Of a stretch of DNA of 64,000 nt, positions 8,645 to 25,289 are shown piece by piece (position 1 is the stretch's first letter; each line of letters starts with the position of its first letter). The DNA lies in assembly GCA_910574995.1 (NCBI GenBank), contig CAJTCS010000007.1, forward strand, positions 1 to 64,000. The letters are read 5' to 3'. A model generated the notes under the pieces. The model was given only the letters and a program-made list of their open reading frames with translations. It made no database searches and was not told the origin of the DNA. This DNA comes from Oscillospiraceae bacterium. GTDB lineage: Bacteria; Bacillota; Clostridia; Oscillospirales; Acutalibacteraceae. Made by a program: the position numbers and the translations under genes.

Positions 8645-8678
8645 ATCTTATAGGATATAAAGATTACTTCACAATAAT

Positions 8679-9202: not shown

Positions 9203-9205
9203 AAG

Positions 9206-9384: not shown

Positions 9385-9435
9385 TTCTCAAAAGTGTTAA
9401 TAAAGCGGCTATTTTCGGCGGTTTAGGACAAAATC

Positions 9436-9480
9436 AAGGACGATTATCCCGATACCCATTGTATCAGAATAACCGTCCTT
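9436..9480 (-). terminator. Probable original terminator of tRNA-fMet
   Basis: An imperfect 19-base stem (AAGGACG...CGTCCTT) lies just past the CCA end of the partial tRNA copy at 9484, on the leftward path of transcription. It is probably the native downstream terminator, now separated from the tRNA gene by the island. Confidence 0.55.
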
Positions 9481-9483
9481 AGA

Positions 9484-9529
<46 letters not shown>

Positions 9530-9697
9530 TGTGGTGAGCCAGTTTTTCCAGCAGTTTTCAGGCATTTTTACTCCATTTTCCCGCAAAAACCCGAAGGTCT
9601 GCCCCTATCCGTTCCACTGAGTTTTTTCGGTTCTGGGTCAGAAAATGGGTCAAACACAGCGTGTGGAGGGGTAGGAGTGGGGGAGACTACATCAAAA

Positions 9698-9720
9698 TTT
9701 GCGCCGCTAAACAAAGAAAA
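9698..9720 (+). repeat. Cargo-flanking repeat, left copy
   Basis: TTTGCGCCGCTAAACAAAGA plus AAA, identical over 23 bases to 22822-22844. The stretch 9530-9826 otherwise has no supported gene; in the leftward frame 9721-9826 reads like the end of a decayed coding sequence. Confidence 0.85.
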
Positions 9721-9826
9721 GCTCCATCCGGTCCTGAGATTCGATTACGGTAGCCTGCTCATTGAGTTTTCAGATCACTTCCAGGCAGACCTCGTCCTGC
9801 TCCAATTTTCCAAAAAATGCCTCCTG

Positions 9827-11107
9827 TCATTTGCACCGCTCAGTCATAATAGACAATATCGTCTGGTCCGTCTGCCGCATTCCCTGCTGAGCTAAAAGGC
9901 CCACATTCGCGATCGTATCATCCACGCCTTTGGTCACGATGCCGTCGCCGCTTTTGAATTCCTGGTGGTTTTTATACATAGAGTAGCCCAATATCCCCGC
10001 GTCTACACTGGCGGCAATCTTGGCGGCGCAGGAGGGCTTTGCCCCATCGCAGATGGTTCCGCTGATGATAGCCACTGCGTTGACGATGGTGTGCGCTATG
10101 GCCTCGTAGCCGCCGTCCAGCAGATAGGCGATCCCGGCTCCTGCCCCGACCCCTGCGCTGACCGCGCCACAGTAGGCCGAAAGACGGCCTATGCCGCTTT
10201 TCTGGTGGATGGTCACCAGGTCGCTGACCAGCAGCGCCCGGTACAGCTTTTCCTGGTTTGCCCCCAGGAACCTTGCGTACCGGACCACCGGCACGGAGGC
10301 GGTTATCCCCTGGTTGCCGGAGCCGGAGAGTATCACCACCGGCAGCTCGCACCCGCTCATCCGGGCGTCGCTCCCTGCGGCGGCCCAGGCTTTCGCCTCG
10401 GTCTTGATGTCCCCGGGGTACTCCACCAGCAGAACGGAGCCAATATTGGCGCCCCAGTTATTTTTCAGCCCTTCCGCCGCGATAGCCGTGTTGCAGTCGA
10501 TCTGCCGCTGTAGTAGCGGTGCGATATCCCCAAGCTCCGCCGTGTTCGCAAACTCCAGAATATCCGCCACATTCAGCACGCTCTTGTCCGTCAGGCTGTC
10601 CTCGGCGGAATCTGTCACCGGCTTTTCCAACAGGACTTCGCCGTTCTTTTCTTCTCTGACGATATTGCTGTGGCTGTTGGCGATATGTACACAGGCGGAA
10701 TGCTCCCCAGCCCAGCCGGTGAGCCGGATGTCCAGAATCCGGGGGGTGTCGGCACAGACTATCTCAATGGGGGTATCCTGACAATAGGCCGCGATTGCCC
10801 CATGCCGGTCCGACGGAACGGTGGAGATGACCTGCAGGATTTTCTCAGCGTCCCCCGCCGCTATTCCCGCCGCAATAGCCGCGGAGATGCCCTTTAGCCC
10901 TCCGGTGTTGGGGACGACCACGCTTTTCACATTTTTGATGATATTGCCGGAGACCTCTGCCCGTATCCTTTCCGGCCAGACTCCCAGGATATCCCGGAGC
11001 CGGGCAGCGGCATAGGCTAGGGCGATGGGCTCCGTACAGCCTGTGGCGGGGACCAGTTCTTCCCTTAAAATGGACAGGTACGCCTTTGTGGTTTCGGTAG
11101 TCAACAT
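9827..11107 (-). CDS. CyuA/UPF0597-family L-cysteine desulfidase-like protein
   Basis: A 426-residue cytosolic protein of the family once called serine dehydratase-like alpha or UPF0597. Members of this family degrade L-cysteine to pyruvate, ammonia and sulfide with a [4Fe-4S] cluster. Seen here: VPATGCTEPIALAYAAA, NVKSVVVPNTGGLKG, the GSGNQGITASVPV loop, and cysteines in CGAVSAGVGAG, GTICDGAKPSC and TGC that match the conserved cluster ligands. It is the last gene of a leftward three-gene set with a 15-bp gap after the YitT gene. Activity on cysteine is inferred from the family; other thiol or amino-acid substrates are possible. Confidence 0.85.
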   Translation of the reverse strand: MLTTETTKAYLSILREELVPATGCTEPIALAYAAARLRDILGVWPERIRAEVSGNIIKNVKSVVVPNTGGLKGISAAIAAGIAAGDAEKILQVISTVPSDRHGAIAAYCQDTPIEIVCADTPRILDIRLTGWAGEHSACVHIANSHSNIVREEKNGEVLLEKPVTDSAEDSLTDKSVLNVADILEFANTAELGDIAPLLQRQIDCNTAIAAEGLKNNWGANIGSVLLVEYPGDIKTEAKAWAAAGSDARMSGCELPVVILSGSGNQGITASVPVVRYARFLGANQEKLYRALLVSDLVTIHQKSGIGRLSAYCGAVSAGVGAGAGIAYLLDGGYEAIAHTIVNAVAIISGTICDGAKPSCAAKIAASVDAGILGYSMYKNHQEFKSGDGIVTKGVDDTIANVGLLAQQGMRQTDQTILSIMTERCK

Positions 11108-11122
11108 AAATTTTACCTCCTT

Positions 11123-12022
11123 TTATCGGGCAGGGATTTCGGGCGGCTCCACATAGACCCGTTCGCTGGAAAAGCCCTGCCCCCGAACCTCCTTGATCTG
11201 TGTGATGGTCAGGAACGCGTTAGGGTCAACGGATTGTATCAGCGACTGTGCGGCATAGAGCTTCCTGGGCGGGATCACGCACAGCACACCGCGCTGAGGT
11301 GACCTTGTCCTGCCGGTTTCGATTTGAACCATAGTGATACCGGCCTGCAGCTTTGTCAGGCATTTCTGCCGTATCTCCTCGTACCGGCTGGAAATCACAA
11401 AGAGCTGTATCTGTGACTGCCCTAAAAGCATCACCTTGTCCAGCACAATCGTCTCTACCACCAGCAACACAACGCCGTACAGGATTTGCTCCGGGTCAGA
11501 GAACACAGTCTGCGCGCCCATGATGACAATATCCGTCAGGTAAACCGCCACGGAGACCGGGATATGTGTCCACTTATGCAGTACCAGATTGACCACATCC
11601 GTGCCGCCGGTGGAGGAGCCCACCCGCATCACCAGCCCCACGGCTATCCCCACCAGCCCGCCGCCCAGCAGGGCCGACAGCAACGGGTCGGCAGTCAGTC
11701 CTTCGATACCCGGCACCCTCTGGGCCGCGCCCAGGAAGATGGGGTAGAGCAAGGAGCTGGCCACCGTAGCCAAAACGAACCTCCATCCCAGCACCGCCCA
11801 GCCCAGCGCCAGGGCCAGCAGGTTCACGCATAAAACAATCAGGGCGGTGTCCAGCGGGATGAACCTTGCCAGAACCACCCCAACGCCCGTGGCCCCGCCC
11901 ATGATGACGCCGCTGGGCAGGATGAATGCCGCCACGGCGAACCCCAGCAGCATATTCCCGGCTATGATCGCAAAGCCAACCTCCGACGCTTTTTTCAAGC
12001 GCTTCCGATCAAGCCTTCTCAT
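11123..12022 (-). CDS. YitT/DUF2179 membrane protein
   Basis: A 299-residue inner-membrane protein. Five or so hydrophobic segments fill residues 14-190, including GNMLLGFAVAAFILPSGVIMGG and the family signature GSSTGGTDVVNLVL. A soluble DUF2179 domain follows (VISSRYEEIRQK, GVLCVIPPRKLY, TITQIKEVRGQGF). The function of YitT proteins is not settled; transport or membrane sensing has been proposed. The start lies one base after the stop of the M16C gene, so the two are translationally linked. Placed between a peptidase and a cysteine-degrading enzyme, a role in moving the peptide or amino acid is a guess only. Confidence 0.88.
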   Translation of the reverse strand: MRRLDRKRLKKASEVGFAIIAGNMLLGFAVAAFILPSGVIMGGATGVGVVLARFIPLDTALIVLCVNLLALALGWAVLGWRFVLATVASSLLYPIFLGAAQRVPGIEGLTADPLLSALLGGGLVGIAVGLVMRVGSSTGGTDVVNLVLHKWTHIPVSVAVYLTDIVIMGAQTVFSDPEQILYGVVLLVVETIVLDKVMLLGQSQIQLFVISSRYEEIRQKCLTKLQAGITMVQIETGRTRSPQRGVLCVIPPRKLYAAQSLIQSVDPNAFLTITQIKEVRGQGFSSERVYVEPPEIPAR

Positions 12023-12023
12023 A

Positions 12024-14915
12024 TCAGAGTACCACTATATTGTCCAGCCAACCGGCACAGGCGTCCACCTGCTGTCGGGAGCCGAGGACGCAGATGCTGC
12101 CCCGCGCTGTCAGGTCCTCCACGGGGCCGGCCAGAGCTTTCAGATCTTCCGGCACGGCGGCGAGCATCTCCCGGCGGACGCGGCACCGGTCCTCGTGGCT
12201 GATCTGCCGCCAGTAGAGAGCGTCTGCCATCCGGCCCTTCATGCGGGCTGTCAGAAGCGGGTCGGACTCCGCCGCCGCGCCGGTGATCATGCCGGTCAGG
12301 TCTATGTCAATGCCTCTCAGAAAGTCCGAGGAGGCACGGTAGCAGTCCAGCGTCCGGGCGGCGCTGGGGTCGCGGAAGGAGTAGAATCCAGCAAAGCCTG
12401 TGTCACGCAAAACCATTCCCGTGCCGTAGGCCCCGCCTTGGACCCGTACCGTGTTCCAAAGGTGGGCAAGGGAGACGGTACGTCCCATGACCTTCGCCGA
12501 GCCGCTTCCGGTTCCCTGGAAAACGCCGCCAAGAGCCGCGTATGATACGCCGGAGGGGATCACAAACCCCTCCCGACGGGGTTCCCAGGGCAGAACGGCC
12601 CCCGTGCAGGGCAGGGCAAAGCTGCCCTGCGGCAGGCTGGACGAAAGCAGTCGGGTGACAGTTTTGGCAGAAGCTTCATTCCCGGCAGTGACGCTGACCG
12701 TCATGCGTGCGCGGCAGAAAATGCGCTGGGCCAGAGATATAAGATCCTGCGCCAAAGCAGGAAAGCGGGCGGGGAAGTTCTGCTCCAGTTCCGTCAGCCA
12801 CCGCAGGAAGGTGATGCCTGACGCCTGCTCCTGCGCGGCACCCTCGGCGGTGGAGCAGGCCAGGACCCTGGACATGGCGGCGCTGTGTCCTGCCGTGACC
12901 ATCTGCTCCGCCATCGCCGCCCGCCGCTGGCGCAGGAAGGTGAGCGCCTGCTGGGAGTTCTCCCACTGCTGTCCAACTAAAAGCTCTGTCAGGAGGGACA
13001 GGGCTTTTTCCAGTTTCGCGTCCAGAATACTGCAGGAAACGCACAGGAACGTCCGGCAGCGGTCCGGAGCGTTTTTCTGCCCATACGCTTCTACTGTGAA
13101 CCAGATATTCCCGAACAGGGAGCGCATCTCCCGGCTCAGGTCTGCCAGACTGTACTTAGCCGTATCCAGACAGCCGAACAACTGGGCCATAAAGGATGCC
13201 TTAACCAGTTCCTCTGGGGACAAGTCATCCAGCGCGAAATAGAGATTGCAATAGGTGATACCGTTGGTGGGCAGCCGATGGCGGAGGAGCGTCACGCAAC
13301 CGGCGGATTCTTCCTCTATAGGCAGCTTTTCCGGCTCCGCCGGAATCTGGTCAAGGCGAAGCCTGGGGATGGACGCCAGCTGCTCCGGCGTGTCCGGCAT
13401 GTTCTGCCAGGCGGCGATAGCTTCCTGGAAGCGATGGACGCCGGCGGCTTCCTCGGTTCCCCAGCTGGATCGGATGGCACTGAGCCGAGCTGTCTCCTGG
13501 GCCCGGCGCTCCTGGCCTATGGTGTGGGAGGGCAGTGCAAGGATCCGGCAGTGATGGGGGTTCTCTAAAATGAGCTGCTTTAGAAGCTCCTCAAAATAGC
13601 CTGTCCCGCACTTGTCCCGCAAGCCGTCAAAGAGCGTACCGACGCTGAGATTTGCCGCAGGGTCGCCGCCGTAGAGCCAGCTCTCCATCACCTGGAAGCA
13701 GAGCATAAGCCCCTGGGGCATCTGCCCATAGTCCCGTTGCCGGGCCTCAAACTCCAGATTGTCCAGCGCCGCCAGGACCCGCCGGTGATCCAGCCCCTCC
13801 CGGGACAGCCGCTCCAGCTCATCCCGAAGGGCGGAGGACACCTCCTCGGACTTGTCCTCGGCAATGTCCCTGGCCTCCAGCAGGAGCCAGGGCTGCTGTA
13901 CGCCGTCGTGAAGCTCTAAGCGGACATCCTGAGCCAGGCCGCTTTCCAGAAGATGCCGCTTCAGGGGGGCCTGGTTGTCCCCACATAGTACATCCGATAA
14001 GGCTTGCAGCGCCATTAACGTCTCCCTGTTCCGGAAGGTGCAGACAGCGTACCCATCTGCCAGCCGGGCGCGTCCCTCCAAGGATTCCTGTGCGGACAGC
14101 TCATAGCGTATAGCGGACAGGCCCGCCTCAACGGGCTTTTGCAGAGGTATCCCTTCCGGCGCGGGACAGCGCTCGTATGCACAGAGGTATTCACTGTCCA
14201 AAATCTCAAGAACCTGCGCGATATCTACGTTGCCGTCCAGGAATATATAGGAATTTGATGGGTGGTAGAGACGGCTGTGGGCGGCAGCGAAGGCTTCGTA
14301 GGTCAGCTCCGGGATATGCGCTGGGTCACCCCCAAAAACATAGCGGTAGCAGGTATCCGGGAACAGGCGGCGGGCCGCCTCCCGCTCCAGAAGGGCGTCC
14401 GGCGAGGAGAAGGCCCCCTTCATCTCGTTATACACCACGCCCTTGACGGAGAGCGCGCTGTCTTCGCCCAGCTCGTAGTGCCAACCCTCCTGGCCGAAAA
14501 TCTCCGGCTTGGAGTGGAGCAGCGGGTGCAGTACCGCGTCCATGTAGACCCGCAGGAGATTGATAAAATCCTGGCCGTTCCGGCTGGATACAGGGTAGAC
14601 AGTTCTGTCAGGGAAGGTCATGGCGTTGAGGAAGGTGTTCATGGAGCTTTTCATCAGCTCCACAAAGGGCTCCTTCACCGGGAAGCGTTTTGAGCCGCAC
14701 AGGACTGAGTGCTCCAGGATATGGAACACGCCTGTGTCGTCCCAGGGCTGGGTCTGGAAGGCGATGGCGAAGGTCTTGTTTTCCTCCGCCCGCTCCAGCC
14801 ATACCAGCCGGGCGCCGGACTTTTGGTGCTCCATTTGCCAGAGGTCCGCCTCCAGCTCGTCAACACGTTGTTGATCTAGGACAATAAAACCTGAAAGGAT
14901 ACTGTTCTTTTCCAT
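12024..14915 (-). CDS. M16C-family zinc metallopeptidase (PreP/insulinase type)
   Basis: 963 residues, the usual size of single-chain M16C enzymes, which enclose and degrade unfolded peptides. The inverted zinc motif HxxEH is present (VFHILEHSVLCGSKRFP, near residue 68), with the following ELMKSSMNTFLNAMTFPDRTVYP block and the distal Glu in SVKGVVYNEMKGAFSSPD. The inactive second half carries PLAHLWNTVRVQGGAYGTG. No signal peptide is visible, so it acts in the cytoplasm. It is the first gene of the leftward operon behind a good SigA promoter. In this setting it may digest peptides imported or left unexported by the divergent ABC module. Confidence 0.93.
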   Translation of the reverse strand: MEKNSILSGFIVLDQQRVDELEADLWQMEHQKSGARLVWLERAEENKTFAIAFQTQPWDDTGVFHILEHSVLCGSKRFPVKEPFVELMKSSMNTFLNAMTFPDRTVYPVSSRNGQDFINLLRVYMDAVLHPLLHSKPEIFGQEGWHYELGEDSALSVKGVVYNEMKGAFSSPDALLEREAARRLFPDTCYRYVFGGDPAHIPELTYEAFAAAHSRLYHPSNSYIFLDGNVDIAQVLEILDSEYLCAYERCPAPEGIPLQKPVEAGLSAIRYELSAQESLEGRARLADGYAVCTFRNRETLMALQALSDVLCGDNQAPLKRHLLESGLAQDVRLELHDGVQQPWLLLEARDIAEDKSEEVSSALRDELERLSREGLDHRRVLAALDNLEFEARQRDYGQMPQGLMLCFQVMESWLYGGDPAANLSVGTLFDGLRDKCGTGYFEELLKQLILENPHHCRILALPSHTIGQERRAQETARLSAIRSSWGTEEAAGVHRFQEAIAAWQNMPDTPEQLASIPRLRLDQIPAEPEKLPIEEESAGCVTLLRHRLPTNGITYCNLYFALDDLSPEELVKASFMAQLFGCLDTAKYSLADLSREMRSLFGNIWFTVEAYGQKNAPDRCRTFLCVSCSILDAKLEKALSLLTELLVGQQWENSQQALTFLRQRRAAMAEQMVTAGHSAAMSRVLACSTAEGAAQEQASGITFLRWLTELEQNFPARFPALAQDLISLAQRIFCRARMTVSVTAGNEASAKTVTRLLSSSLPQGSFALPCTGAVLPWEPRREGFVIPSGVSYAALGGVFQGTGSGSAKVMGRTVSLAHLWNTVRVQGGAYGTGMVLRDTGFAGFYSFRDPSAARTLDCYRASSDFLRGIDIDLTGMITGAAAESDPLLTARMKGRMADALYWRQISHEDRCRVRREMLAAVPEDLKALAGPVEDLTARGSICVLGSRQQVDACAGWLDNIVVL

Positions 14916-14968
14916 GATAGCCTCCTTGTAGTGAGTTCCTTTTTGTTCGATCCGGCTTAGGTGCCAAT

Positions 14969-14997
14969 ATTATAGGAGCTTTTCCCCTCTGGCGCAA
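14969..14997 (-). promoter_or_regulatory. SigA promoter of the M16C-YitT-CyuA operon
   Basis: Reading leftward: TTGCGC (complement of 14992-14997), 17-bp spacer, perfect TATAAT (complement of 14969-14974). The rest of the 290-bp divergent gap to 15207 holds a weak rightward TTGATT near 15145 and a GGGAGGGG ribosome site, but no further gene. Confidence 0.75.
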
Positions 14998-15206
14998 GGT
15001 GCTATGCTTATTCTGTTCATTTTCCCGACCATTCTGTCCCATTCGTCAAAACTCCTTGCTTTTTCATACCGGCTTTGGACTGGGACAGAGCGTCCGCTAT
15101 CTGTACAGAATAGACCGTTTCCGGGGCGGAATGAGCAAGTAGTATTGATTTTTTCGGAAAAAATGATATGGTTGCATCATAGAAAAATCTGGGAGGGGTA
15201 TGTCAA

Positions 15207-16067
15207 ATGTACGACCTGCTTATTATCGGCAGCGGGCCCGCCGGTGTTTCCGCCGCGCTGAGCGCAAAGGCGCGGGGCTTGGATTTCCTGTGGTTCGGCT
15301 CCAGACAGTTGAGCCCTAAAATTGCGAAAGCTGAGCGCGTTATGAACTATCCGGGGCTTCCGGCGGTCACCGGGCCAGAGATGCGGGAAGCCTTTTTACA
15401 TCAAGTAGACAGCCTGGGCATTTCTGTTTTAGAGGAACGGGTCAATTCCATCTACGGCATGGGCGGCTATTATACCGCCGTGGTCAACGACAAGATGTAT
15501 GACGGCAGGACTGTCATCCTGGCCCCGGGGGTATCTAACAGCCGTGAGATACCCGGCGAGAGCCGGTTGCTGGGGAAGGGGGTCAGCTATTGCGCCACCT
15601 GTGACGGGGAGCTGTATCGGGGCAAACGTATAGCGGTGGTCTGCACGGACCCGTCCTTGGAGGAAGAAGTGGAGTTTCTGGCCGGGCTGGCTTCGGACGT
15701 GTTCCTGTGTACCAGCTATAAGGATTGCGGCGTCCAGCGGGACAATGTGCGGCATACGGTGGGCTATCCCGCGGAAATTTTGGGTGAGGACAGGGCCTCC
15801 GGCCTGATCTGCGGCGGAGAGACAGTAGCGGCGGACGGAGTCTTCTGTCTGCGTTCCTGCGTGGCCCCCTCGGCGCTGCTGCCGGGACTGGCGGCAGAGT
15901 GCGGGCACATCCAGGTGGACCGGGGACAGCGGACCAACCTGCCGGGCTGTTTTGCCGCCGGGGACTGCACGGGACGGCCCTATCAGTACGCAAAAGCGGT
16001 GGGCGAGGGCAACGTGGCCCTGCACAGCGTGGTGGAATACCTGAAAGAAATGGAGGCGTGTGAATGA
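15207..16067 (+). CDS. Thioredoxin reductase-like flavoprotein without NADPH motif (FFTR/DTR type)
   Basis: A 286-residue FAD protein that would reduce thioredoxin. GSGPAG at residues 8-13 binds FAD. The redox pair is CATC at 129-132, and GCFAAGDCTG plus YAKAVGEGNVAL closes the FAD site. In ordinary TrxB the second domain has GGGDSAxEE and HRR motifs for NADPH; here the first reads VVCTDPSLEEEVEFL and the second is missing. Clostridial ferredoxin-dependent flavin thioredoxin reductases have the same loss, so ferredoxin or another donor is likely. GGGAGGGG precedes the ATG. It overlaps the next gene by four bases and is followed by a thioredoxin, its probable partner. Confidence 0.85.
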   Translation: MYDLLIIGSGPAGVSAALSAKARGLDFLWFGSRQLSPKIAKAERVMNYPGLPAVTGPEMREAFLHQVDSLGISVLEERVNSIYGMGGYYTAVVNDKMYDGRTVILAPGVSNSREIPGESRLLGKGVSYCATCDGELYRGKRIAVVCTDPSLEEEVEFLAGLASDVFLCTSYKDCGVQRDNVRHTVGYPAEILGEDRASGLICGGETVAADGVFCLRSCVAPSALLPGLAAECGHIQVDRGQRTNLPGCFAAGDCTGRPYQYAKAVGEGNVALHSVVEYLKEMEACE

Positions 16068-16984
16068 AATCAAGAATATTGAAGGTAAAGGACTACCGGG
16101 AGGTGGACGTGGAGCCTCTGCTCAGGCCCTTTGTGCCGGATGAGACAGCGCTGGAGGCGGAGCTGAGGCGGCTGACTAACCCATATATCCGCTGGGAACC
16201 CGGCGAGGAGGTTTCTGCCGGGGACCAGGTGGTGTGCCGGTTGCTTTCGGACTGCCCCCGGTACAATAAGGAGAAAGTTCGCTTCGTGGCAGGGAGCGGG
16301 ATGTTTCAAAGGGAGCTGGAAAATCTCTCCATCGGCATGAGGGTGGGCGAGACCCGGGAGGCCGGCCTGCCGGAGGGGAAGGTGTCCCTTACGCTGGCGG
16401 GGGTGATGAACCGCGTGGCCCCGGAACCCAGTGATGAGATGGTGGAGAAGCTGGAGCTGGACGGCGTGCATACTGTGGCGGAATACCGGGCCTACCTGCT
16501 GGAGCAGCAGCGGGAGGCCGCCTTCGGACAAGACTCCTTTGAAGCGCTGAAGAAACTCACCCGGGAGGTGATAAGCGGCTCGGAGTTTATCCTATACAGG
16601 GAGGACTGGGCCGAAGCTATCAACCGGGAGCTGGACCGCTGCCGGACGCTGTGCCGCCAGGAGGGCATGGTCCTGGAGGAAATGACGCCGGAGCAGTTCC
16701 AGGGCCGCATCCCAGTGAAAAGCTACCATGAGCTGGTAGCCATGCTCCAATATGATGGTTGGGACAATCTCTGCCGCTATCTGCTGGGCCGCCGGTACGC
16801 CGAAACGGATAGTTTCCACTCCGGCGAGGCGGAGTACGAGGCGTTTATCGCGGACTATGCAAAAACCTGGCGCGTCTCAGAGGAAAGCGCCAAGGAGGCC
16901 AACCCGTTTGAGAACTTCATTTTTAACGAATACACCGGGCACGCCTATACAGTGCTGAAAAACTATATCAGAGAATTTTATTAA
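16064..16984 (+). CDS. Trigger-factor-like peptidyl-prolyl isomerase/chaperone
   Basis: A 306-residue protein with an FKBP-like domain at about residues 35-130 (AGDQVVCRL, FVAGSGMFQRELENLSIGMRVGETREAGLPEG). The linker PEPSDEMVEKLELDGVHTVAEYR matches trigger factor, and an all-helical C-terminal arm follows. The N-terminal ribosome-docking domain with its GFRxGxxP signature is absent, so it should not act at the ribosome exit. Its start overlaps the flavoprotein stop (ATGA) and thioredoxin follows 14 bp later, so the three are co-translated. A foldase for a dedicated cysteine-containing client is a reasonable inference; the client may be one of the exported proteins downstream. Confidence 0.78.
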   Translation: MKSRILKVKDYREVDVEPLLRPFVPDETALEAELRRLTNPYIRWEPGEEVSAGDQVVCRLLSDCPRYNKEKVRFVAGSGMFQRELENLSIGMRVGETREAGLPEGKVSLTLAGVMNRVAPEPSDEMVEKLELDGVHTVAEYRAYLLEQQREAAFGQDSFEALKKLTREVISGSEFILYREDWAEAINRELDRCRTLCRQEGMVLEEMTPEQFQGRIPVKSYHELVAMLQYDGWDNLCRYLLGRRYAETDSFHSGEAEYEAFIADYAKTWRVSEESAKEANPFENFIFNEYTGHAYTVLKNYIREFY

Positions 16985-16998
16985 GGGAGGAACCCATC

Positions 16999-17316
16999 AT
17001 GGCGATTCAAAACGCGGACAAGACCAATTTCAAAGAACTGATCAGAGAGGACTTTGTGATTGCTGACTTCTACGGCACAACCTGCGTCCCCTGCAAGCTG
17101 TTTTCCAAGATACTGGAGGACATTGAGGCGGAGATACCATTCCTGAACATCGTCAAGCTCAATACCACCGATAACCCGGAGCTGGCAGAGGAGTATGGGA
17201 TAACAGCCGTGCCCACCGTCCACTTCTACAAGGACGGACAGCTGGTGGCAAGCCATGTGGGTGTCATGCAGCCCCAGGCGGTGAAGGAGGTTATTGCCCA
17301 GCATATGTATGCGTAA
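16999..17316 (+). CDS. Thioredoxin with atypical CVPC active site
   Basis: A 105-residue single-domain thioredoxin fold, cytoplasmic with no leader. The active site is TTCVPCK (Cys29 and Cys32), where most thioredoxins have WCGPC, and the cis-Pro loop AVPT is intact. The missing Trp and the Val in the motif should shift its redox potential. AGGGAGG lies before the ATG. It ends the flavoprotein-chaperone-thioredoxin unit and is the natural electron acceptor of the reductase at 15207. Confidence 0.92.
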   Translation: MAIQNADKTNFKELIREDFVIADFYGTTCVPCKLFSKILEDIEAEIPFLNIVKLNTTDNPELAEEYGITAVPTVHFYKDGQLVASHVGVMQPQAVKEVIAQHMYA

Positions 17317-17382
17317 AACCGGACAGATTAAGCGGCTTTTCGGGCAAAATCGACATCTGCCCTTTTTTCGATAATCTCAATA

Positions 17383-17391
17383 TGCTATAAT
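17383..17391 (+). promoter_or_regulatory. Extended -10 promoter of the lipoprotein gene
   Basis: TGC followed by a perfect TATAAT (17386-17391), 31 bases before the ATG. There is no good -35 box, which fits an extended -10 promoter or one that needs an activator such as the LytTR protein. Confidence 0.55.
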
Positions 17392-17421
17392 CCATTCACC
17401 AATATAAGGAGGCTATGTCCC

Positions 17422-17901
17422 ATGAAAAAGACTGTGAAACGCACCATCTGCTCTCTGCTTGCACTGCTTTTAGTATGCGGCCTCGCCGCCTGCGGCGGCA
17501 CAAAGAGCGTGGACCCAAAAACATGTACATACGATGAGATGGTGGACTACCTTACCGCCAAGGGCTACATCTCCAAAGATGCCGTTCCGGTGGACATGCT
17601 AACTACCGAGGGATATCTCACGGACAACACCGGCGGTGATATCCCCTATGGGCCCTTTGCGGATAAGGCGCAGGACTACGACGGGCTTTGGCTGATGTGG
17701 TGGGACGCCGCCACCCCCTCTGAGGCGTACACCAACTGCTTCCAGAACCTTGCCATGAACGAGGGTACTATCGTCTACATGGGCGGCGCGGCTGTTCTGG
17801 AGACAGCTGCTTACAACGGCAGCTTTGCTATTGCCTTTGGGGAGGGCTACGCCCAAAAGGACGCCGTCACAGCGGACTTCCAGGCGCTTTCCCAGAAATA
17901 A
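17422..17901 (+). CDS. Small lipoprotein, WWD family A
   Basis: A 159-residue exported protein of no family I recognise. The N-terminal charged stretch, hydrophobic core and lipobox LAAC (Cys25) mark it for lipid anchoring. The mature part has TYDEMVDYLTAKGYI, a central LMWWDAATPSEAY and a late YNGSFAIAFGEGY. The same three landmarks in the same order occur in the 159-residue product at 21500, so the two are paralogues. It has its own promoter and an intrinsic terminator. It lies just upstream of the ABC exporter pair, so it may be a substrate-binding or accessory subunit. Confidence 0.82.
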   Translation: MKKTVKRTICSLLALLLVCGLAACGGTKSVDPKTCTYDEMVDYLTAKGYISKDAVPVDMLTTEGYLTDNTGGDIPYGPFADKAQDYDGLWLMWWDAATPSEAYTNCFQNLAMNEGTIVYMGGAAVLETAAYNGSFAIAFGEGYAQKDAVTADFQALSQK

Positions 17902-17909
17902 GGACATAG

Positions 17910-17953
17910 AAACGCCCCTACCCTATCCTATATGGGATAGGGCGGGGGCGTTT
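17910..17953 (+). terminator. Terminator or attenuator before the ABC genes
   Basis: A long GC-rich stem (AAACGCCCC...GGGGCGTTT, with CCCTATCC pairing GGGATAGGG) is followed by CGTTG. Because the ABC genes lack an obvious promoter of their own, partial read-through could set a lipoprotein-to-transporter ratio. Confidence 0.75.
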
Positions 17954-17986
17954 CGTTGAAATGCACATAAGAGGAAGGAGAAAACC

Positions 17987-19726
17987 ATGGAAACAAACGC
18001 GATTTTCCGAAAAAATTACGGCAACTTCCGCCGCTTCTTCTCCATGCTGGGCAAGGCGAACCTGCCATATCTGTGGATTGTAGGCTACCTTGCGGCAAGC
18101 GCCGTCATTGCCAATGTGGGCGTCAGCTCTACCGAATACAGCGCCGCCCTTTTTGCAGGAAACGTGGGACTGACTGCCGTGGTGCTGCCATACCTGTTTT
18201 ACCAGATACTATCCCTGATTCTCAGTTCCGTCTCCGGTCTCATTAATAACCTCTGCACAGCCCGCATGGACAGGAATCTGCGGCGTATGGTCTGGCGCAA
18301 GACGGTAAATCTGCCACTGCGGTTCTATGAGAACAACAACCCCAAGGAACTGCTCAGCCGTATCACCACCGACATCTCCAGCATCAGCAATCTGGTCATG
18401 AAGGTTTTTCTCCCCATCTTCACCACGGCCTATGCCAGCTTTGTCATCCTCCAGAAGGTCTCCAGCTATGACGGGGCGCTGATGTGGTCTTTAGTGGCGG
18501 CGCTGCCGGTGAATATCCTCATCAGCTTTATTCTGGGCCGCCTGCAATTTGGCGTACAGGACCTTATCAACCGGCGCAACGCCCAGTTGACCGCCACCGT
18601 GGCGGAGCGCACAAACAACCTGATGCTCATCAAATCCATGGGCACAGAGGAAAAGGAGGCCGGTGTAGGTGGGGAACGAATGAAGGCCAGCTACCGGGCT
18701 GCCGGAATGAATATCTGGATTACCGGCATGGCTGTCCCTATCCGGGCCATTGCAAGCGTTCTGCAAACCATCGTTATCATCCTGGTAGGCAGGGGGTACT
18801 ACGCTTCCGGCGCGCTTAGCCTGACGGAGTGGATCGCCTATTATGGCTTCGCCATCCAGCTTACCAATATCCTCAGCGCCTACTGCGGATACTGGACCTC
18901 CTTCAAAAGCGCCCAAGGCGCGGTGGAGCGGGTTAGCGAGATTATGGCTGAGCCCTCGGAGAACTTGAACGCCGGAAACATCATGGATTCCCCGACGGGG
19001 GGCATTCGGTTTGAGAAGGTGGATTTCTCCTTTGGGAGCGAGCCGCTTTTCCAGGGCTTAGACCTGGACATCCCCGCCGGGCGCATCACCGCCGTGGTAG
19101 GCCCCTCCGGGTCAGGGAAGACCACCCTTTTGAATCTGATTGACCGCCTTTACCCGCTCAACGGCGGGTCGATACAGATAGGAGGAAAGGATACCTCCGA
19201 CTACTCCCTGTCCAGCTTCCGCCGCGCCTTGGGATATGTGACCCAGGAAAGCGTCATGTACGCCGGCACCATCCGGGACAACCTGCTCCACGGCCTGGGA
19301 CGGGTGCCGTCGGACCAGGAACTGGACGAGGCCTGCGCCGCTGTGGGCATCCTTGACTATGTCCGCCGCCAGCCCCTGGGCTATGACGCCCCGGTGGGCG
19401 AAAGCGGGGCCAGCCTTTCCGGCGGGCAGAGACAGCGCTTCTCTGTGGCCCGGGCCCTGTTGAAAAAGCCGGACTGCCTGCTGCTGGACGAGGCCACCGC
19501 CGCCATGGACATAGGCGGCAAGGCGGGCGTGTGGGCCAGCATTCGGCAGGTAATGGCGGGGAAAACCGTGGTCTATGTGGCCCATGATGCCCAGACCATA
19601 CGCAACGCGGACTACCTGATCGTCCTTAGGGACGGGCAGGTGGAAGCCGCCGGGGAGCGGGAGGACGTCATGGCCCGGAACCCCTACTGTCAGGAAATGA
19701 TGGAAAACGGAGAGGAGGGCCGCTGA
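17987..19726 (+). CDS. ABC exporter half-transporter, subunit 1
   Basis: 579 residues: six transmembrane helices in residues 20-310, then an ABC ATPase. Walker A GPSGSGKTT is near 371, the signature LSGGQRQR near 475, Walker B LLLDEA with catalytic Glu near 497, and the H-loop VYVAHD follows. This is type IV (exporter) topology. GGAAGGAG precedes the ATG. The next gene, one base downstream, codes for the partner half, so they form a heterodimer. Unlike many heterodimers, both ATP sites look catalytically complete. Substrate unknown; peptides, thiols and lipids are all exported by this class. Confidence 0.93.
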   Translation: METNAIFRKNYGNFRRFFSMLGKANLPYLWIVGYLAASAVIANVGVSSTEYSAALFAGNVGLTAVVLPYLFYQILSLILSSVSGLINNLCTARMDRNLRRMVWRKTVNLPLRFYENNNPKELLSRITTDISSISNLVMKVFLPIFTTAYASFVILQKVSSYDGALMWSLVAALPVNILISFILGRLQFGVQDLINRRNAQLTATVAERTNNLMLIKSMGTEEKEAGVGGERMKASYRAAGMNIWITGMAVPIRAIASVLQTIVIILVGRGYYASGALSLTEWIAYYGFAIQLTNILSAYCGYWTSFKSAQGAVERVSEIMAEPSENLNAGNIMDSPTGGIRFEKVDFSFGSEPLFQGLDLDIPAGRITAVVGPSGSGKTTLLNLIDRLYPLNGGSIQIGGKDTSDYSLSSFRRALGYVTQESVMYAGTIRDNLLHGLGRVPSDQELDEACAAVGILDYVRRQPLGYDAPVGESGASLSGGQRQRFSVARALLKKPDCLLLDEATAAMDIGGKAGVWASIRQVMAGKTVVYVAHDAQTIRNADYLIVLRDGQVEAAGEREDVMARNPYCQEMMENGEEGR

Positions 19727-19727
19727 T

Positions 19728-21503
19728 ATGAAGCGCAACGGAAAAGACGGCAGTCAACAGCAAAAGCAGAAATTCTCTTTCCGTTCCTATATCTCGTTTT
19801 ACACCCGGTTCCCCATTCCATGGTGGCTGTTTATCGCGTCCCTGGTCTTCGGCCTTGTCAATACCGAGGTGGTGCTGGCTATCTCCAAGTATGTGATCCA
19901 GATCAACAAGGGCGAGCTCTACAACGGCGTAATTATCGGCTACTCCCTGTTGACCGTGCTGAACGCCGTAATAGCCATGTTCAGCAACCTCTGTGGGGAG
20001 TATGGCATCCAGAAAGTCACACTTAGGGCCAGGATGCTGCTGTGGAACAAGATACTCCATCTGCCAATGCGGGAGGTGGAGCGCCGCCAGCCCTCGTCCC
20101 TCATTTCCGGCGTTGTGAACGATATCACACAGGCCAGCGCGGTGATACATATGATATTCTCTACGGTGGCCTCGATCTACGGCTTTATCCGCTGCTGCGT
20201 GGAGATGGCCTGGTTCAACGCGAAGCTTTCCGCCTATATGCTGCTGCTTGTCCCTCTGGCTGTTGGCGTGTTCGCCCTGGTGGGACAGCTGCAGTACCGT
20301 ATGATGCTGCGGCGGTATGAGAGCCTGGGTGCCATGACGGAGTTCTTCTCCGAGCATATCTCTGCCGCCAAGCACGTGAAGGCCCAGGCCATGGAGGGGT
20401 TGGAAGCAGAGGAGGGCCTTCGGGCCATTGATGAGCGGTACAAAGCGGACATCTATTATGCCTTTATGGAGGTTCTGCAGGTGTTCTCCAATACGCTTTA
20501 TACCTCCATCGGCAGCATTGCCATCGCCTTGTTCGGCTCTGACATGATCCGCAAGGGCCAGATGCCTGATACCGGCATCAATGACTTTACCACCTATAAG
20601 GGTCGGGTGGACCAGTACCAGGCTGAGGTGCTGACCCATTACCAGACCCTAAAGGGCACCCAGGGTGCCCTGCAGTATGTGGGCGTCCTCCTGGATGGGC
20701 CGGAGGAGGACCCGGACGCCGGGTACGACCTGCCGGAGGGCTGGGCGAAGGAGGACATCGTGCTGGAACGGGTGAGCTTTGGTTACGACCCACGCCAGCC
20801 GGTGCTCCACGACCTGAGCCTTACCATCCCCGCCGGGATAACCACTGCCATTATTGGTAACAACGGCTGCGGCAAGTCCACCCTGCTCAAGCTGCTCCAG
20901 GGCATATATCTGCCGGACAGCGGCCGGGTATGGCTGGGGGAGTCCGCGGTGGACAAGGTGAAGCTGTCCCAGCTGCGTCGGCGCTTTGGCTGTATCTTCC
21001 AGCATAACCCCTTGTTTTCCGGCTCCGTTCGTGATAACATAGCCTATTGGGAAACGGGCGAAGTGTCGGATGAGGCTGTGGCCGGGGCCGCAAGGCTTGC
21101 GGACGCGGACGGCTTTATCAGCCAGCTGCCAGAAGGGTATGACTCTGATGTGGGCATGGGCGGGGCACTGCTCTCCGGCGGGCAGCGCCAGCGGGTGGCA
21201 ATCGCCAGGACGCTGCTGTCCGACCCGGAGTATCTCCTTATGGACGAGGCAGGGGCCAGTCTGGACCATAAGAGCGACATGACCATCTTCCGCGCTGTCA
21301 GGGAACATATGAAGGGTCGGACGATCGTGGTGGTGGCCCATGATATGCGCACGGTGATGGAGGCGGATCATATCATCGTCCTCAACAGCGGCTCCCTGGA
21401 GGCTGCTGGCACCCACGAGGAGCTGCTGAAAACCAGCCCGACTTACCGCAGTTATCTGGAGCTGCAGGGCTTTGCCCTGGCGGGAGAGGAGGCAGGACAA
21501 TGA
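19728..21503 (+). CDS. ABC exporter half-transporter, subunit 2
   Basis: 591 residues with an N-terminal six-helix domain and a C-terminal ATPase: Walker A GNNGCGKST near 376, signature LSGGQRQR near 481, Walker B LLMDEAGASLD near 502, and H-loop VVVAHD. The DEAGASLD form, where DEATSALD is usual, is slightly divergent but keeps the Glu. It begins one base after subunit 1 and overlaps the next small gene by four bases, so the transporter and small protein are produced together. It would export a substrate across the membrane with subunit 1. Confidence 0.93.
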   Translation: MKRNGKDGSQQQKQKFSFRSYISFYTRFPIPWWLFIASLVFGLVNTEVVLAISKYVIQINKGELYNGVIIGYSLLTVLNAVIAMFSNLCGEYGIQKVTLRARMLLWNKILHLPMREVERRQPSSLISGVVNDITQASAVIHMIFSTVASIYGFIRCCVEMAWFNAKLSAYMLLLVPLAVGVFALVGQLQYRMMLRRYESLGAMTEFFSEHISAAKHVKAQAMEGLEAEEGLRAIDERYKADIYYAFMEVLQVFSNTLYTSIGSIAIALFGSDMIRKGQMPDTGINDFTTYKGRVDQYQAEVLTHYQTLKGTQGALQYVGVLLDGPEEDPDAGYDLPEGWAKEDIVLERVSFGYDPRQPVLHDLSLTIPAGITTAIIGNNGCGKSTLLKLLQGIYLPDSGRVWLGESAVDKVKLSQLRRRFGCIFQHNPLFSGSVRDNIAYWETGEVSDEAVAGAARLADADGFISQLPEGYDSDVGMGGALLSGGQRQRVAIARTLLSDPEYLLMDEAGASLDHKSDMTIFRAVREHMKGRTIVVVAHDMRTVMEADHIIVLNSGSLEAAGTHEELLKTSPTYRSYLELQGFALAGEEAGQ

Positions 21504-21979
21504 AACGCTTTACGATTTTATTTTCCGTTCTTCTGGTGCTGGGCTTTGGCGGTGTGCTGGCCTATGTGGCGGCGTCACCGGAGTTTGTCCCGCCAGCGGC
21601 ACTGATAGGCGAAGGGGAAGACCCTGACGCTCCCATCTGGGACATGACCATGGACGAGGTCCTGGCTGAATTGGCAGCCCAGGGGCTCATTGACGACCCG
21701 GCCTCCGCCATCTCTCTGGCAAGCGACGGCCTATGTACCGACGCCCGCCAAGTCAGCGGCGCGGAATTTTACTGGTGGGACCTGGAAAACCTGAAGGAGG
21801 GCAGCCAAGAAGAGACTGCCTATAAGAGCCTGAAGTCAGACGGCGTCATCGATCTCTACGGCTCCGGGCACATTTTGAGTTATGTTCACAACGGCCCCTT
21901 TGCGATGTGGCTGGACCTCTATGAGGGCGACCCGGGCGCATTGGAGCAGGCGTTCAAGGATGTCGGGCAGGCAGAGTAA
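21500..21979 (+). CDS. Small membrane-anchored protein, WWD family B
   Basis: 159 residues. An N-terminal signal or anchor helix (residues 4-24) has no lipobox Cys. The exterior part has TMDEVLAELAAQGLI, then EFYWWDLENLKEGSQEETAY and YVHNGPFAMWLDLYEGD. These landmarks match those of the lipoprotein at 17422, including the WWD triplet and the NG-x-FA loop. The ATG overlaps the ABC stop, tying its synthesis to the exporter. It may be an accessory subunit of the transporter or a binding protein for the same ligand. I know no named family for it. Confidence 0.8.
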   Translation: MKRFTILFSVLLVLGFGGVLAYVAASPEFVPPAALIGEGEDPDAPIWDMTMDEVLAELAAQGLIDDPASAISLASDGLCTDARQVSGAEFYWWDLENLKEGSQEETAYKSLKSDGVIDLYGSGHILSYVHNGPFAMWLDLYEGDPGALEQAFKDVGQAE

Positions 21980-21998
21980 AAACAGGGAGGAAACGGCG

Positions 21999-22763
21999 AT
22001 GGAGATGAAAGCTCTGCTGGTGGACAGCAACCAGCGTCTGTTGGGTGAGCTGACCGTTATGCTGCACGCGTTCCAGTGCTTCCGGGTGGTAGGGACGGCG
22101 CGGACATCAACGGAGGCCGTTGAATATGTCCAGTTCAATGATGTGGACGTGGTATTTGCCAGCCACCAGCCCGCTGATCCCCGCACTACCAGCGTGGGGG
22201 AGCATTTGTCCGCCGTTTTTGGGCAGAGCCATCCACATATCCAGGTGGTGGTCTATTCCGACTCGGAGGAGTGGGCTTTCAACGCTTTCCGCTGTCAGTG
22301 CGCCGGGTACCTGCTGACGCCTTTTGACCCCCTGGCGCTCCAATCGCTGGTCAACAGGCTGAGCTATGTGTTCGACCTGCAGCAGGCCAAGCGGGAGGTG
22401 GCGAATCGCAGTATCATGATCAAAACCCGAAACGGGTATCAGCTCACCCGCCTCAGTGATATTCTCTTCATCGAACGGAACAACCGCAAAAACAGCATCG
22501 TTACTACCGATGGGCAGGAAATAACGCTGCTGGGATACACCATGAACCAGCTGGAAGAAATGCTGGAGGGCTGCGGGTTTTACCGCTGCTATCAGTCTTT
22601 CATCGTCAACCTCTCCCAGGTGGCGGCTGTCCGGGCGGACAATGAGGCGAAAAATTATACCATTCGTTTCAAAGACTATGAGGGAGAGATTCTGCTCAGC
22701 CGGGAAAAATACGCGGAGCTGGTAACCCTTCTGAAGGGGCGGTACGCGAAGATCAATATCTGA
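21999..22763 (+). CDS. LytTR-type regulator with degenerate receiver domain
   Basis: 254 residues. The first 120 have a CheY-like fold (ALLVDSNQRLLGEL, VVVYSDSEEWAFNAFRCQCAGYLLTPFDP), but the phospho-acceptor Asp of strand 3 is replaced: the strand reads DVVFASHQPADP. The Lys of strand 5 is also not found (LLTPFDP in place of KPF). A LytTR DNA-binding domain occupies 145-250 (DILFIERNNRKNSIVTTDGQ, FYRCYQSFIVNLSQV). GGGAGG lies before the ATG at 21999. No sensor kinase is nearby, so it probably responds to something other than phosphorylation. It ends the rightward cargo operon and is the obvious regulator for it. Confidence 0.88.
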   Translation: MEMKALLVDSNQRLLGELTVMLHAFQCFRVVGTARTSTEAVEYVQFNDVDVVFASHQPADPRTTSVGEHLSAVFGQSHPHIQVVVYSDSEEWAFNAFRCQCAGYLLTPFDPLALQSLVNRLSYVFDLQQAKREVANRSIMIKTRNGYQLTRLSDILFIERNNRKNSIVTTDGQEITLLGYTMNQLEEMLEGCGFYRCYQSFIVNLSQVAAVRADNEAKNYTIRFKDYEGEILLSREKYAELVTLLKGRYAKINI

Positions 22764-22850: not shown

Positions 22851-23822
22851 TTACGATTCCGCCATCCACTTCTTAAATTCCTCAAAAGACATTTTACCCG
22901 TAGCGCACTCGTCCCGTTTACCCTTAGCCGTGGCACTCCAAGCGTAGAACGCACCAGGACTGATCCTCCCTGCCTTGATCCAGTTAAACCGCTTCTTGTA
23001 CTCCCGCCGATACTCCTTGAACAGCTCGTCTGAATTTTTCTTCTCCGCCCAACGCTTTACCGCACCGATCTCTCTGCAAGTGTGCCCGTTCTCATCCACG
23101 GTCAGGTTACAGAACTCCGCCGTGTTGCGCCGGGGAATCGCAAAATATTTGCCGCAATAGGAGCAGATACGCATACGCTGTTCCCGCTTGACGCACTCGC
23201 GTAGGGAGAACTCGACAAGGTCAGAGAGGGAGGTGGGGTGGAGAACTTCGGCGAAACTGCCGTTGTTGGTTCGCTCATACATGGTGGAAATTGGCCTGAA
23301 CTGGTAGGCATAGAGCGACTCTCTTTTTTCTTTATCCAGATACGCTTGCAACTTTTCATGAACAGGTTTCTTCTTGCCGTCGTCGATATCCAGCACATCT
23401 TCAAACAAACGCATAACTTGTTTTTGCAGAGTGTCCAGGTCGCTGGGGATGTGCCGCAGTTGCTTATGCGGGAGATGTTCGTACACGTCCTCGTCCGGGT
23501 GATGATCCATATAGCGGAAACGCGCCTGCCAGTCGAGACGTAGAAACTCGAAATAGATGTGTTTCTTCGCAAGCTCCTTCAGAATACTCATCACAGCAGC
23601 CTGCGAATCAAAGTCGCGTTCCCGATAGAAATTCAGTAGGGCTTTGTCCATTTCCTTAAACAGATCTTCCATTGGCCAGATGTCCAAGTAGGTAAACCGC
23701 AAGAGGCTTTCCATAAATGGGAAGTCCCTTTCTCTTGTGTGCGAGCGCTCCAACGTCAAATCCTTGTAGACGAAATACTCGCGGTTCTCTTCAAAGTAGG
23801 TGTAGAACAGGTAGTCAACCAT
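22851..23822 (-). CDS. DUF6076-like mobile-element protein with zinc-binding motif
   Basis: 323 residues, resembling proteins of unknown function found beside MobP relaxases in clostridial elements. The N-terminal 200 residues are helical and charged. Near residue 245 comes ICSYCGKYFAIPRRNTAEFC, then a further Cys in GHTC, a treble-clef-like zinc site of the CGNR/MYM-like type. The C-terminus is basic (KRFNWIKAG). The start is set at the ATG ending at 23822, because a rightward promoter occupies 23872-23900; an upstream ATG would end at 23900. A nucleic-acid-binding regulatory role is likely but unproved. Confidence 0.65.
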   Translation of the reverse strand: MVDYLFYTYFEENREYFVYKDLTLERSHTRERDFPFMESLLRFTYLDIWPMEDLFKEMDKALLNFYRERDFDSQAAVMSILKELAKKHIYFEFLRLDWQARFRYMDHHPDEDVYEHLPHKQLRHIPSDLDTLQKQVMRLFEDVLDIDDGKKKPVHEKLQAYLDKEKRESLYAYQFRPISTMYERTNNGSFAEVLHPTSLSDLVEFSLRECVKREQRMRICSYCGKYFAIPRRNTAEFCNLTVDENGHTCREIGAVKRWAEKKNSDELFKEYRREYKKRFNWIKAGRISPGAFYAWSATAKGKRDECATGKMSFEEFKKWMAES

Positions 23823-23871
23823 TTTGATTGCGCCCCATTTCAGAAAGATAAAATTATTTTTGAAATTGTCC

Positions 23872-23900
23872 TTGACAAATAGAGTGGCATATGTTACCAT
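23872..23900 (+). promoter_or_regulatory. SigA promoter of the mobility operon
   Basis: TTGACA (23872-23877), 17-bp spacer, TACCAT (23895-23900). It drives the excisionase-like, HTH, MobC and relaxase genes and overlaps the possible 5' end of the divergent gene. Confidence 0.7.
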
Positions 23901-24879: not shown

Positions 24880-25287
24880 TTGAGCGAGAAAAAGCAAAAA
24901 TATGCGTACTGGATGCGGCCATCGATGGTCGCGGAGATTGAGGAAATGCTGTCGGAGGCAAACGCTACCTCCAAAGGGGACTTCGTTTGCAAGGCGGTTG
25001 AGTTCTACATTGGTTATCTCAGGCAGCAGAAAAACATCAATTTCTTGGCTCCGATGCTGGCAGGAGCAATTAAGAGCGAGGTGCGTTCCCTTGGCAAGGA
25101 TGTGTGTGAAATGCTGTTCAAGATGGCGGTAGAAATTGGAATCACCAGCAATCTTACAGCGGCGGTCAACGGCATTTCTGATGAATCTCTGGACGCAGTG
25201 CGGCTCAATGTTGCACAAGAGGTAGCGAGGGTGAATGGTATTTTAACCTTTGAGGATGCCGACGAGTGGCAGAACGGGGGTGAGTGA
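24880..25287 (+). CDS. MobC-like relaxosome accessory protein
   Basis: A 135-residue protein. The N-terminal KQKYAYWMRPSMVAEIEEMLSEANATSKGDFVCKAVEFYIGYL resembles a ribbon-helix-helix DNA-binding unit, and a helical C-terminal part follows. TTG at 24880 is taken as start because GGAG is six bases upstream; an ATG at 24793 would overlap the candidate oriT. It ends just at the relaxase start, and such pairs form relaxosomes in which the small protein binds oriT. It would position the relaxase; there is no direct evidence for oriT binding. Confidence 0.68.
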   Translation: MSEKKQKYAYWMRPSMVAEIEEMLSEANATSKGDFVCKAVEFYIGYLRQQKNINFLAPMLAGAIKSEVRSLGKDVCEMLFKMAVEIGITSNLTAAVNGISDESLDAVRLNVAQEVARVNGILTFEDADEWQNGGE

Positions 25288-25289
25288 TT

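Follow-up and report, generated by a model that had tools for sequence, protein, structure and literature searches.

The window analysed here, a 64,000-nucleotide stretch of an Oscillospiraceae bacterium (contig CAJTCS010000007.1, positions 1 to 64,000), contains an integrated island, and the genes carried on it are the subject of this report. A reading made from the letters of the window, hereafter the sequence-only reading, had claimed eleven cargo genes on a single integrated island. Both parts were borne out: the eleven genes are present and intact between positions 9827 and 22763, and they lie on an 18.6-kb element at tRNA-Met which is bounded by 46-bp direct repeats and has an integrase and a MobP3 relaxase inside. 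The cargo genes, with the matches and expect values (E) on which they were named, are the following.

9827..11107, minus strand: cyuA, L-cysteine desulfidase family (SDH_alpha); PF03313 at E 2.7e-60, 9he0 at E 2e-26
11123..12022, minus strand: yitT, YitT membrane protein with DUF2179; PF02588, PF10035
12024..14915, minus strand: m16c, PreP-type M16C metallopeptidase; M16C_assoc, PreP_C; best solved relative 2fge at E 1.4e-150
15207..16067, plus strand: trxR2, FFTR-type flavoprotein; 6gnc at E 2e-76 over the full length; CATC kept, NAD(P)H motifs lost
16064..16984, plus strand: tigL, trigger-factor-like foldase of 306 amino acids without the ribosome-binding domain; TIGR00115 positions 106-384
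16999..17316, plus strand: trx, thioredoxin with CVPC; PF00085
17422..17901, plus strand: wwd1, lipoprotein with a WWD domain; lipobox Cys24
17987..19726, plus strand: abcA, type IV ABC transporter half; PF00664 and PF00005
19728..21503, plus strand: abcB, partner ABC half; PF00664 and PF00005
21500..21979, plus strand: wwd2, membrane-anchored WWD protein; from alignments
21999..22763, plus strand: LytTR regulator, receiver without the phospho-acceptor Asp; PF04397

The families assigned earlier were all recovered (SDH_alpha/CyuA, YitT with DUF2179, M16C/PreP, Pyr_redox_2, trigger-factor-like, thioredoxin, two proteins with ABC_membrane and ABC_tran, and LytTR), and only the small pair stood outside familiar families, the two WWD proteins matching no Pfam or NCBIfam family above cut-off. 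The intergenic distances are operon-like: on the plus strand they measure -4, 14, 105, 85, 1, -4 and 19 bp, and on the minus strand 1 and 15 bp. The proposal that these genes act together is strongly supported by the conservation of the neighbourhood in 24 loci, its persistence through rearrangement, a shared operator, and signs that the peptidase and the desulfidase were recruited (or lost) more than once. The cassette is almost certainly a single conserved system that is under joint regulation and moves horizontally. At its core are the two ABC halves together with a trigger-factor-like foldase, a thioredoxin and the small surface proteins, to which the main WWD form adds the LytTR regulator; the FFTR-type reductase, M16C, the cysteine desulfidase and YitT are frequent partners of this core.

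Co-occurrence across genomes, the check that the sequence-only reading had proposed, was sought in a collection of one genome per species (84,980 species). Loci on contigs of 3 kb or longer were located with the LytTR profile only (two peptide patterns), and their neighbours were mapped by tblastn with the window proteins; the count rests on the LytTR scan, so variants without this LytTR were missed. The scan gave 24 loci, and in these the genes were found in a conserved neighbourhood and not scattered. They lie mostly in Oscillospiraceae and Lachnospiraceae, including Gemmiger, Anaerotruncus, Petralouisia and Scatolibacter, with one in an Atopobiaceae metagenome-assembled genome (MAG; 299-kb contig); another, on an 8.6-kb contig, is labelled Bacteroidales, which may be a binning error (L073). 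The genes abcB and wwd2 are present in 24 of 24 loci (abcB split in L081, wwd2 in L076), and abcA, trx and tigL in 23, being missing from L072 because its contig ends inside abcB. The FFTR-like gene was found in 15 of the 24 loci and M16C in 17. The cyuA gene lies within the fetched stretch in nine loci and just beyond it in eight more, making up all 17 M16C loci; the eight were confirmed in L065, L087, L066 and L069, and read from coordinates, without fetched neighbouring sequence, in L067, L068, L071 and L070. The yitT gene was found inside the fetched stretch in eight loci and confirmed beyond it in four. Five of the seven loci that lack M16C are short or cut (L072, L073, L074, L079 and L088). 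Nearer to the window, the flavoprotein occurs at 92% identity or more in 4 of 29 genomes of the genus, and the remaining matches are at 33-36%. In a draw of 398 genomes of the family, strong WWD profile matches were confined to the own genome and that of Scatolibacter (G095), and five weak matches lay outside any cassette; a draw of 394 genomes of the order added G703 and G739. Such a sporadic module is as expected for something mobile.

Gene order and strand vary between lineages and the set persists. The window type has two diverging blocks. Scatolibacter (G095, locus L043) has tigL-trx-cyuA-m16c-wwd1-abcA-abcB-wwd2-lytTR on one strand, and five Lachnospiraceae loci (L081, L082, L084, L085 and L086) have wwd1-abcA-abcB-wwd2-lytTR-tigL-trx-m16c-M18 aminopeptidase-cyuA on one strand; yitT closes the series in four of the five, and the M18 aminopeptidase is assigned by Pfam in L082. 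The Gemmiger loci have cyuA and m16c on the opposite strand, downstream. A foldase profile search of 245 genomes of the order gave four matches including the own genome and reached a much diverged branch. There, L096 (G616) has on one strand, at 26-45% identity, an AgrC-like GHKL kinase, LytTR, abcA, abcB, tigL, trx, two WWD-like lipoproteins, m16c and cyuA; L097 (G589) has abcA, abcB, tigL, trx and a lipoprotein; and L098 has another lipoprotein with abcA, abcB, tigL and trx. The deepest core seen is thus the ABC pair, the ribosome-free trigger factor, the thioredoxin and a lipoprotein. The signal might be easier to name from the L096 cassette (3626-11969), which has its own sensor kinase and a tandem pair of lipoproteins.

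The histories of the core genes run in parallel, their pairwise distances rising together among abcA, abcB, tigL, trx and lytTR with r of 0.85-0.99, values drawn from 11-14 of 14 loci per core gene (cyuA, 6 of 14) and inflated because near-identical pairs were included. In trees with outside copies (19 rows for M16C and 22 for CyuA), the cassette copies of both enzymes were polyphyletic, and well-supported branches force at least four label changes for M16C and at least five for CyuA. These trees hold a chosen 11 of 18 cassette M16C, 10 cassette CyuA and 12 of 13 fetched outside CyuA; L134, which has an internal stop, was left out of the CyuA tree, the L138 sequence is not complete, and two of the M16C rows have long branches. 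The clustering of CyuA labels was weak by shuffling (100 of 500 shuffles as low). The polyphyly suggests that M16C and CyuA have been repeatedly recruited or lost. Label changes do not tell gain from loss; repeated recruitment is the natural reading, and losses or escapes from cassettes are a less likely one. A second cyuA-m16c pair was also seen outside the cassette in G786 (L135, 7712-12008), at 75% and 61% identity.

Two divergent operons had been proposed for the cargo. The divergent blocks stood, and putative operators suggest three transcription units rather than two.

15007..15039, plus strand: putative operator 1, before m16c-yitT-cyuA; 21-bp-period direct repeat, top score of the window
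15103..15135, minus strand: putative operator 2, before trxR2; second core match, second best score of the window
17321..17353, minus strand: putative operator 3 (weaker), before wwd1; third best site of the window

When the divergent gap (14915-15207 in the window) was aligned across eight loci, two direct repeats with a 21-bp period emerged, one for each operon. The core repeat pattern occurs twice in the window, both times in the divergent gap, against 0.04 expected. The strict pattern ATTCTGT-N14-ATTCTGT, which covers the form of operator 1 only, has with up to one mismatch a single occurrence in the 3.45-Mb genome, at operator 1. With the window, L066 and L069 as training loci, a scoring matrix placed its top three window sites before m16c, trxR2 and wwd1 (30.9, 29.7 and 22.7; next site 16.3). 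In held-out lineages, the best site of the whole locus fell in a cassette promoter gap for six of seven, the gaps making up 1.6-4.6% of the bases, in a test that was designed after the site positions were seen, on seven loci chosen by us, one per lineage, with gene gaps (some shortened to 300 bp) as the windows. Column-shuffled matrices reached a mean of 0.67 of the seven lineages, with 1 of 300 reaching six, and other repeat periods (15-20 and 22-27) succeeded in 0-3 of the seven. In L082, which is sister to the L084 locus of the test, the best site lies within abcB (19.0) and the promoter site comes second (18.3). Scores are low in L078 (8.4) and L079 (13.0), and the matrix scan found no site in L088, in L081, whose contig begins 81 bp before wwd1, or in the cut L072.

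The cassette LytTR protein is the candidate ligand of these repeats. All 25 cassette proteins have another residue in place of the phospho-acceptor Asp of the receiver, all 25 keep Cys198, and 24 keep Cys102; the diverged LytTR of L096, where a kinase gene is present, retains the phospho-acceptor. Cys198 sits at the position of AgrA Cys199, which is described as a redox sensor in excerpts of PMC8228455 and PMC4227749. The second of these also describes AgrA, a LytTR protein, as binding two direct repeats as a dimer, and direct repeats suit a LytTR protein of this kind. We infer that the cassette LytTR binds the 21-bp-period repeats.

The lipobox Cys24 of wwd1 is conserved in at least 90% of 21 copies. 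A sub-threshold Pfam match of wwd1 to DUF4223 (E 0.043) covers its first 40 residues. Searched against Pfam, the mature WWD domains (n = 29) gave no family, the best of five member matches to four stray families having E 0.024, and a model of the domain (predicted local distance difference test score, pLDDT, 91.7) matched nothing in the PDB at E 0.001 or better, an absence which does not prove a new fold. Variant forms were also seen. The wwd2 genes of L043 (15969-16811) and L075 (9117-9956) have two tandem WWD domains, and a frameshift splits wwd2 of Gemmiger sp. An194 (L076, 9504-9981), which is whole in L077 and L083. Solitary small lipoproteins with a faint WWD-like pattern occur in other genomes (L054, L055 and L056), the L054 copy adjoining a thioredoxin reductase (27% identity).

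Both ABC halves have Walker A, LSGGQ and Walker B with its Glu. Against the CydD and CydC models (TIGR02857 and TIGR02868), abcA scored 206.3 (cut-off 435) and 205.8 (cut-off 329), and abcB 212.7 and 176, all of them below the cut-offs; the scores of abcA on these models are lower than on several other exporter models. When 10 of the 11 cargo proteins (abcB left out) were compared with PADLOC models, only abcA matched, to mad3 (E 4.5e-30) and mad8 (E 8e-10), through its ATPase part. In a Lachnospiraceae UBA9414 MAG (L081, 2369-4377), abcB is broken into two frames; it is whole in the relative L082.

The flavoprotein had been described as thioredoxin reductase-like and without NADPH motifs, and this holds and can be refined. 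Among solved proteins it comes closest to 6gnc, 6gna and 6gnd (E 2e-76 to 2e-71, the next match being at 2e-35), of which 6GNC is the C. acetobutylicum FFTR2 (CaFFTR2) alone and 6GND its complex with thioredoxin (part of PMC8469568). The FFTR of cyanobacteria (5j60) follows further down, at E 6e-27, after ordinary reductases. CATC is present in 16 of 16 cassette flavoproteins. With the NAD(P)H motifs defined as in excerpts of PMC10880999, a pattern scan of trxR2 in the window found GxGxx[AG] only at 8 and 266, none past the CxxC, and no HRR; the motifs are gone also in the 16 cassette copies, where the stretch after the CxxC was judged by eye. On these sequence grounds, trxR2 is classed with the clostridial ferredoxin-dependent thioredoxin reductases (FFTR). 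The CVPC reported for the thioredoxin holds for the window and 21 of 24 cassette copies, the other three having CGPC instead. Away from the cassette, an FFTR-like gene directly adjoins cyuA in G776 (L089, 7324-10434), beside a membrane protein that we take to be an AEC-type transporter.

The foldase TigL is a trigger factor lacking the ribosome-binding domain. It scored 37.8 bits on TIGR00115, under the cut-off of 180.2 and on the listed part of the profile only. In a Foldseek search with its AlphaFold2 model (pLDDT 93.9), trigger factors ranked first (3gty, E 9e-12; 1w26, E 8e-9), with template modelling (TM) scores of 0.4 and below, and the fold is a peptidyl-prolyl isomerase (PPIase) domain plus C-terminal arms. 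The HxxEH motif of M16C reads HILEH in 18 of 18 cassette copies. The best solved relative of CyuA is the L-cysteine desulfidase 9he0, and six Cys conserved in at least 90% of 10 cassette copies fit a predicted cysteine cleavage with an Fe-S cluster.

The sequence-only reading had joined reduction, folding, export or sensing, peptide breakdown and cysteine disposal into one pathway. These steps are consistent with the parts. Judged from the proteins encoded, we tentatively favour, at somewhat below even confidence, a pathway by which disulfide-containing peptides would be imported, reduced, unfolded and degraded. The WWD lipoprotein and its membrane-anchored sister would present the peptide outside the cell and the ABC pair would carry it inward. 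Electrons from ferredoxin would pass through the FFTR to the thioredoxin, opening the disulfides of the peptide, and the ribosome-free trigger factor would keep it unfolded; a trigger factor that lacks the ribosome-binding domain is expected to work on chains that are not at the ribosome. M16C, one of the PreP-type peptidases, which cleave short unfolded peptides, would then cut the peptide down, with the M18 aminopeptidase in one Lachnospiraceae group, and CyuA would break down surplus cysteine to pyruvate, ammonia and sulfide. The LytTR protein, with its conserved cysteines and no phospho-acceptor, may signal the thiol state and govern all units by way of the 21-bp-period operator. Inward transport fits best with surface lipoproteins beside the transporter, and such lipoproteins adjoin the ABC genes also in the diverged L096, L097 and L098, which counts in favour of this pathway, as does the AgrC-like GHKL kinase of L096. 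Precedents are found in excerpts of the literature: antimicrobial peptides are imported and degraded by way of Sap (PMC3207918), the term import-and-destroy is in use (PMC7463930), and importers with the type IV exporter fold exist (PMC10967856, PMC10246721).

Several observations weigh against this import pathway. Most transporters of the type IV fold export, abcA and abcB lie closest, among solved structures, to exporters such as ABCB1 and BmrA, and a classical binding protein is absent from the cassette. The wwd1 gene, found in 20 of 23 loci, is missing in three Gemmiger loci, and no wwd1-like frame was found in the gaps of two of these (L077 and L083). The FFTR is missing in Scatolibacter (G782) and in the three tested genomes with the one-strand Lachnospiraceae operon (G783-G785). 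The long loci L075 and L078 have a cassette with neither M16C nor CyuA in place, both being elsewhere in the genome; both enzymes are common outside cassettes too, and the L097 genome (G589) gave no M16C match at E 1e-30. The LytTR protein has no counterpart of Cys228, the partner of the AgrA redox cysteine, as no Cys lies past Cys198 in 24 of 25 proteins (L088 unscored).

That Cys198 takes the place of the redox-sensing Cys199 of AgrA would suit a regulon against thiol or disulfide stress, in which LytTR senses oxidation, the ABC pair pumps out a thiol that is toxic or oxidised in the manner of CydDC, the thioredoxin, FFTR and foldase are repair proteins, M16C clears damaged peptides and CyuA lowers cysteine. 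CyuA proteins remove cysteine, as is known for the family. FFTR-thioredoxin pairs serve stress defence in C. difficile, according to part of PMC10880999. Such a regulon leaves the surface WWD proteins and the PreP-type and M18 peptidases unexplained, and the ABC halves fall under the CydC and CydD cut-offs; we regard it as a rather unlikely account, though one with some claim. The type IV fold and the exporters among the nearest solved relatives speak for export of some peptide or protein with cysteines whose gene lies elsewhere, this cargo being held reduced and unfolded by TigL and thioredoxin, exported by the ABC pair and received outside by the WWD proteins, with the peptidase clearing what is not exported, and a ribosome-free trigger factor would suit the holding of a chain before export. 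This is doubtful in view of the unexplained desulfidase and aminopeptidase, the lack of any Peptidase_C39 leader-peptidase domain in the ABC proteins (Pfam), and the lack of an obvious precursor gene among frames of at least 25 amino acids listed, with their conservation not compared, in the gaps of L075, L077, L078, L080, L082, L083 and L084, so that a short precursor may have been missed. Accidental cargo without joint function, to which the mobility of the island and the sporadic module (4 of 29 genus genomes; the own and one other strong match in 398 family genomes) would lend themselves, is scarcely credible beside a neighbourhood conserved across families despite changed order and strand, a shared operator, and the repeated recruitment or loss of two enzymes. 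The probability left over after these four readings goes to something else.

The proposed import pathway shares its logic with Sap of Haemophilus, where an ABC transporter is combined with a surface-side partner and cytoplasmic peptidase activity. No common component is claimed, and the cassette, known from its sequence, differs in having a type IV ABC pair, redox enzymes, a foldase, a desulfidase and its own regulator. Like the thiol and heme exporter CydDC, it has two type IV ABC halves beside thiol biology, but it falls under the CydC and CydD cut-offs and has peptidases, a foldase and WWD proteins. As in the clostridial FFTR-thioredoxin pairs, an FFTR-type reductase without NAD(P)H motifs accompanies a thioredoxin, whereas the cassette ties the pair to an ABC transporter, a foldase and a peptidase, and the reductase is missing in some lineages. 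TigL resembles trigger factor in its PPIase-like and C-terminal domains and differs in lacking the N-terminal ribosome-binding domain. With Agr-type LytTR regulation the cassette shares the LytTR domain, a direct-repeat operator, the Cys at the place of AgrA Cys199 and, in L096, an AgrC-like kinase, but its receiver lacks the phospho-acceptor and no kinase gene was seen in the main form. The claim that no named system has this set agrees with our search, in which no description of such a system was found in open-access PubMed Central (PMC) full texts, most subscription papers being outside the search. To our knowledge, no named system shares the core. We therefore call the cassette a new system, of which the function is inferred.

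More speculatively, and in our view improbable in this full form, the cassette may be a mobile pathway under its own regulation that lets gut anaerobes take up disulfide peptides such as host defensins or the bacteriocins of rivals, reduce them with ferredoxin electrons, unfold them with the ribosome-free trigger factor and digest them to sulfide. If true, it would disarm and feed on disulfide peptides in one step, and with a host or rival peptide as substrate commensals would have a novel means of both resisting and consuming that peptide. The analysis defines a system, and not a list of familiar genes, which is common to several bacterial families and moves on integrative elements. It also offers a setting for what some clostridial FFTRs serve, for why a trigger factor loses its ribosome-binding domain, and for the role of a small surface domain that has no solved match.

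The ends and the mobile backbone of the island are the following.

9484..9529, no strand: attL, 46-bp copy of the 3' part of tRNA-Met at the left island end, identical to 28029-28074
22851..23900, minus strand: DUF6076 protein, mobile backbone; PF19553
23949..24559, plus strand: two genes for small DNA-binding proteins, HTH_17 and HTH_36
25284..26642, plus strand: MobP3 relaxase; NF041499 at 347.9 bits, above the cut-off of 150
26874..27920, plus strand: tyrosine integrase; PF00589, PF14659
28029..28074, no strand: attR, within tRNA-Met (28029-28105)

An empty integration site was looked for and not found. In two genomes of the same genus (G152 and G174), the same cargo island is bracketed by repeats 97.8% identical to those of the window. 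In G151 the cargo (89-96% protein identity) adjoins integrase fragments, and the attachment repeat is absent from the stretches fetched. G152 has extra copies of the 46-bp repeat (L037, 3254-3299; L038, 1790-1835 and 13243-13287) and a second integrase copy (95%) adjacent, and islands seem to pile up in a row near its tRNA-Met.

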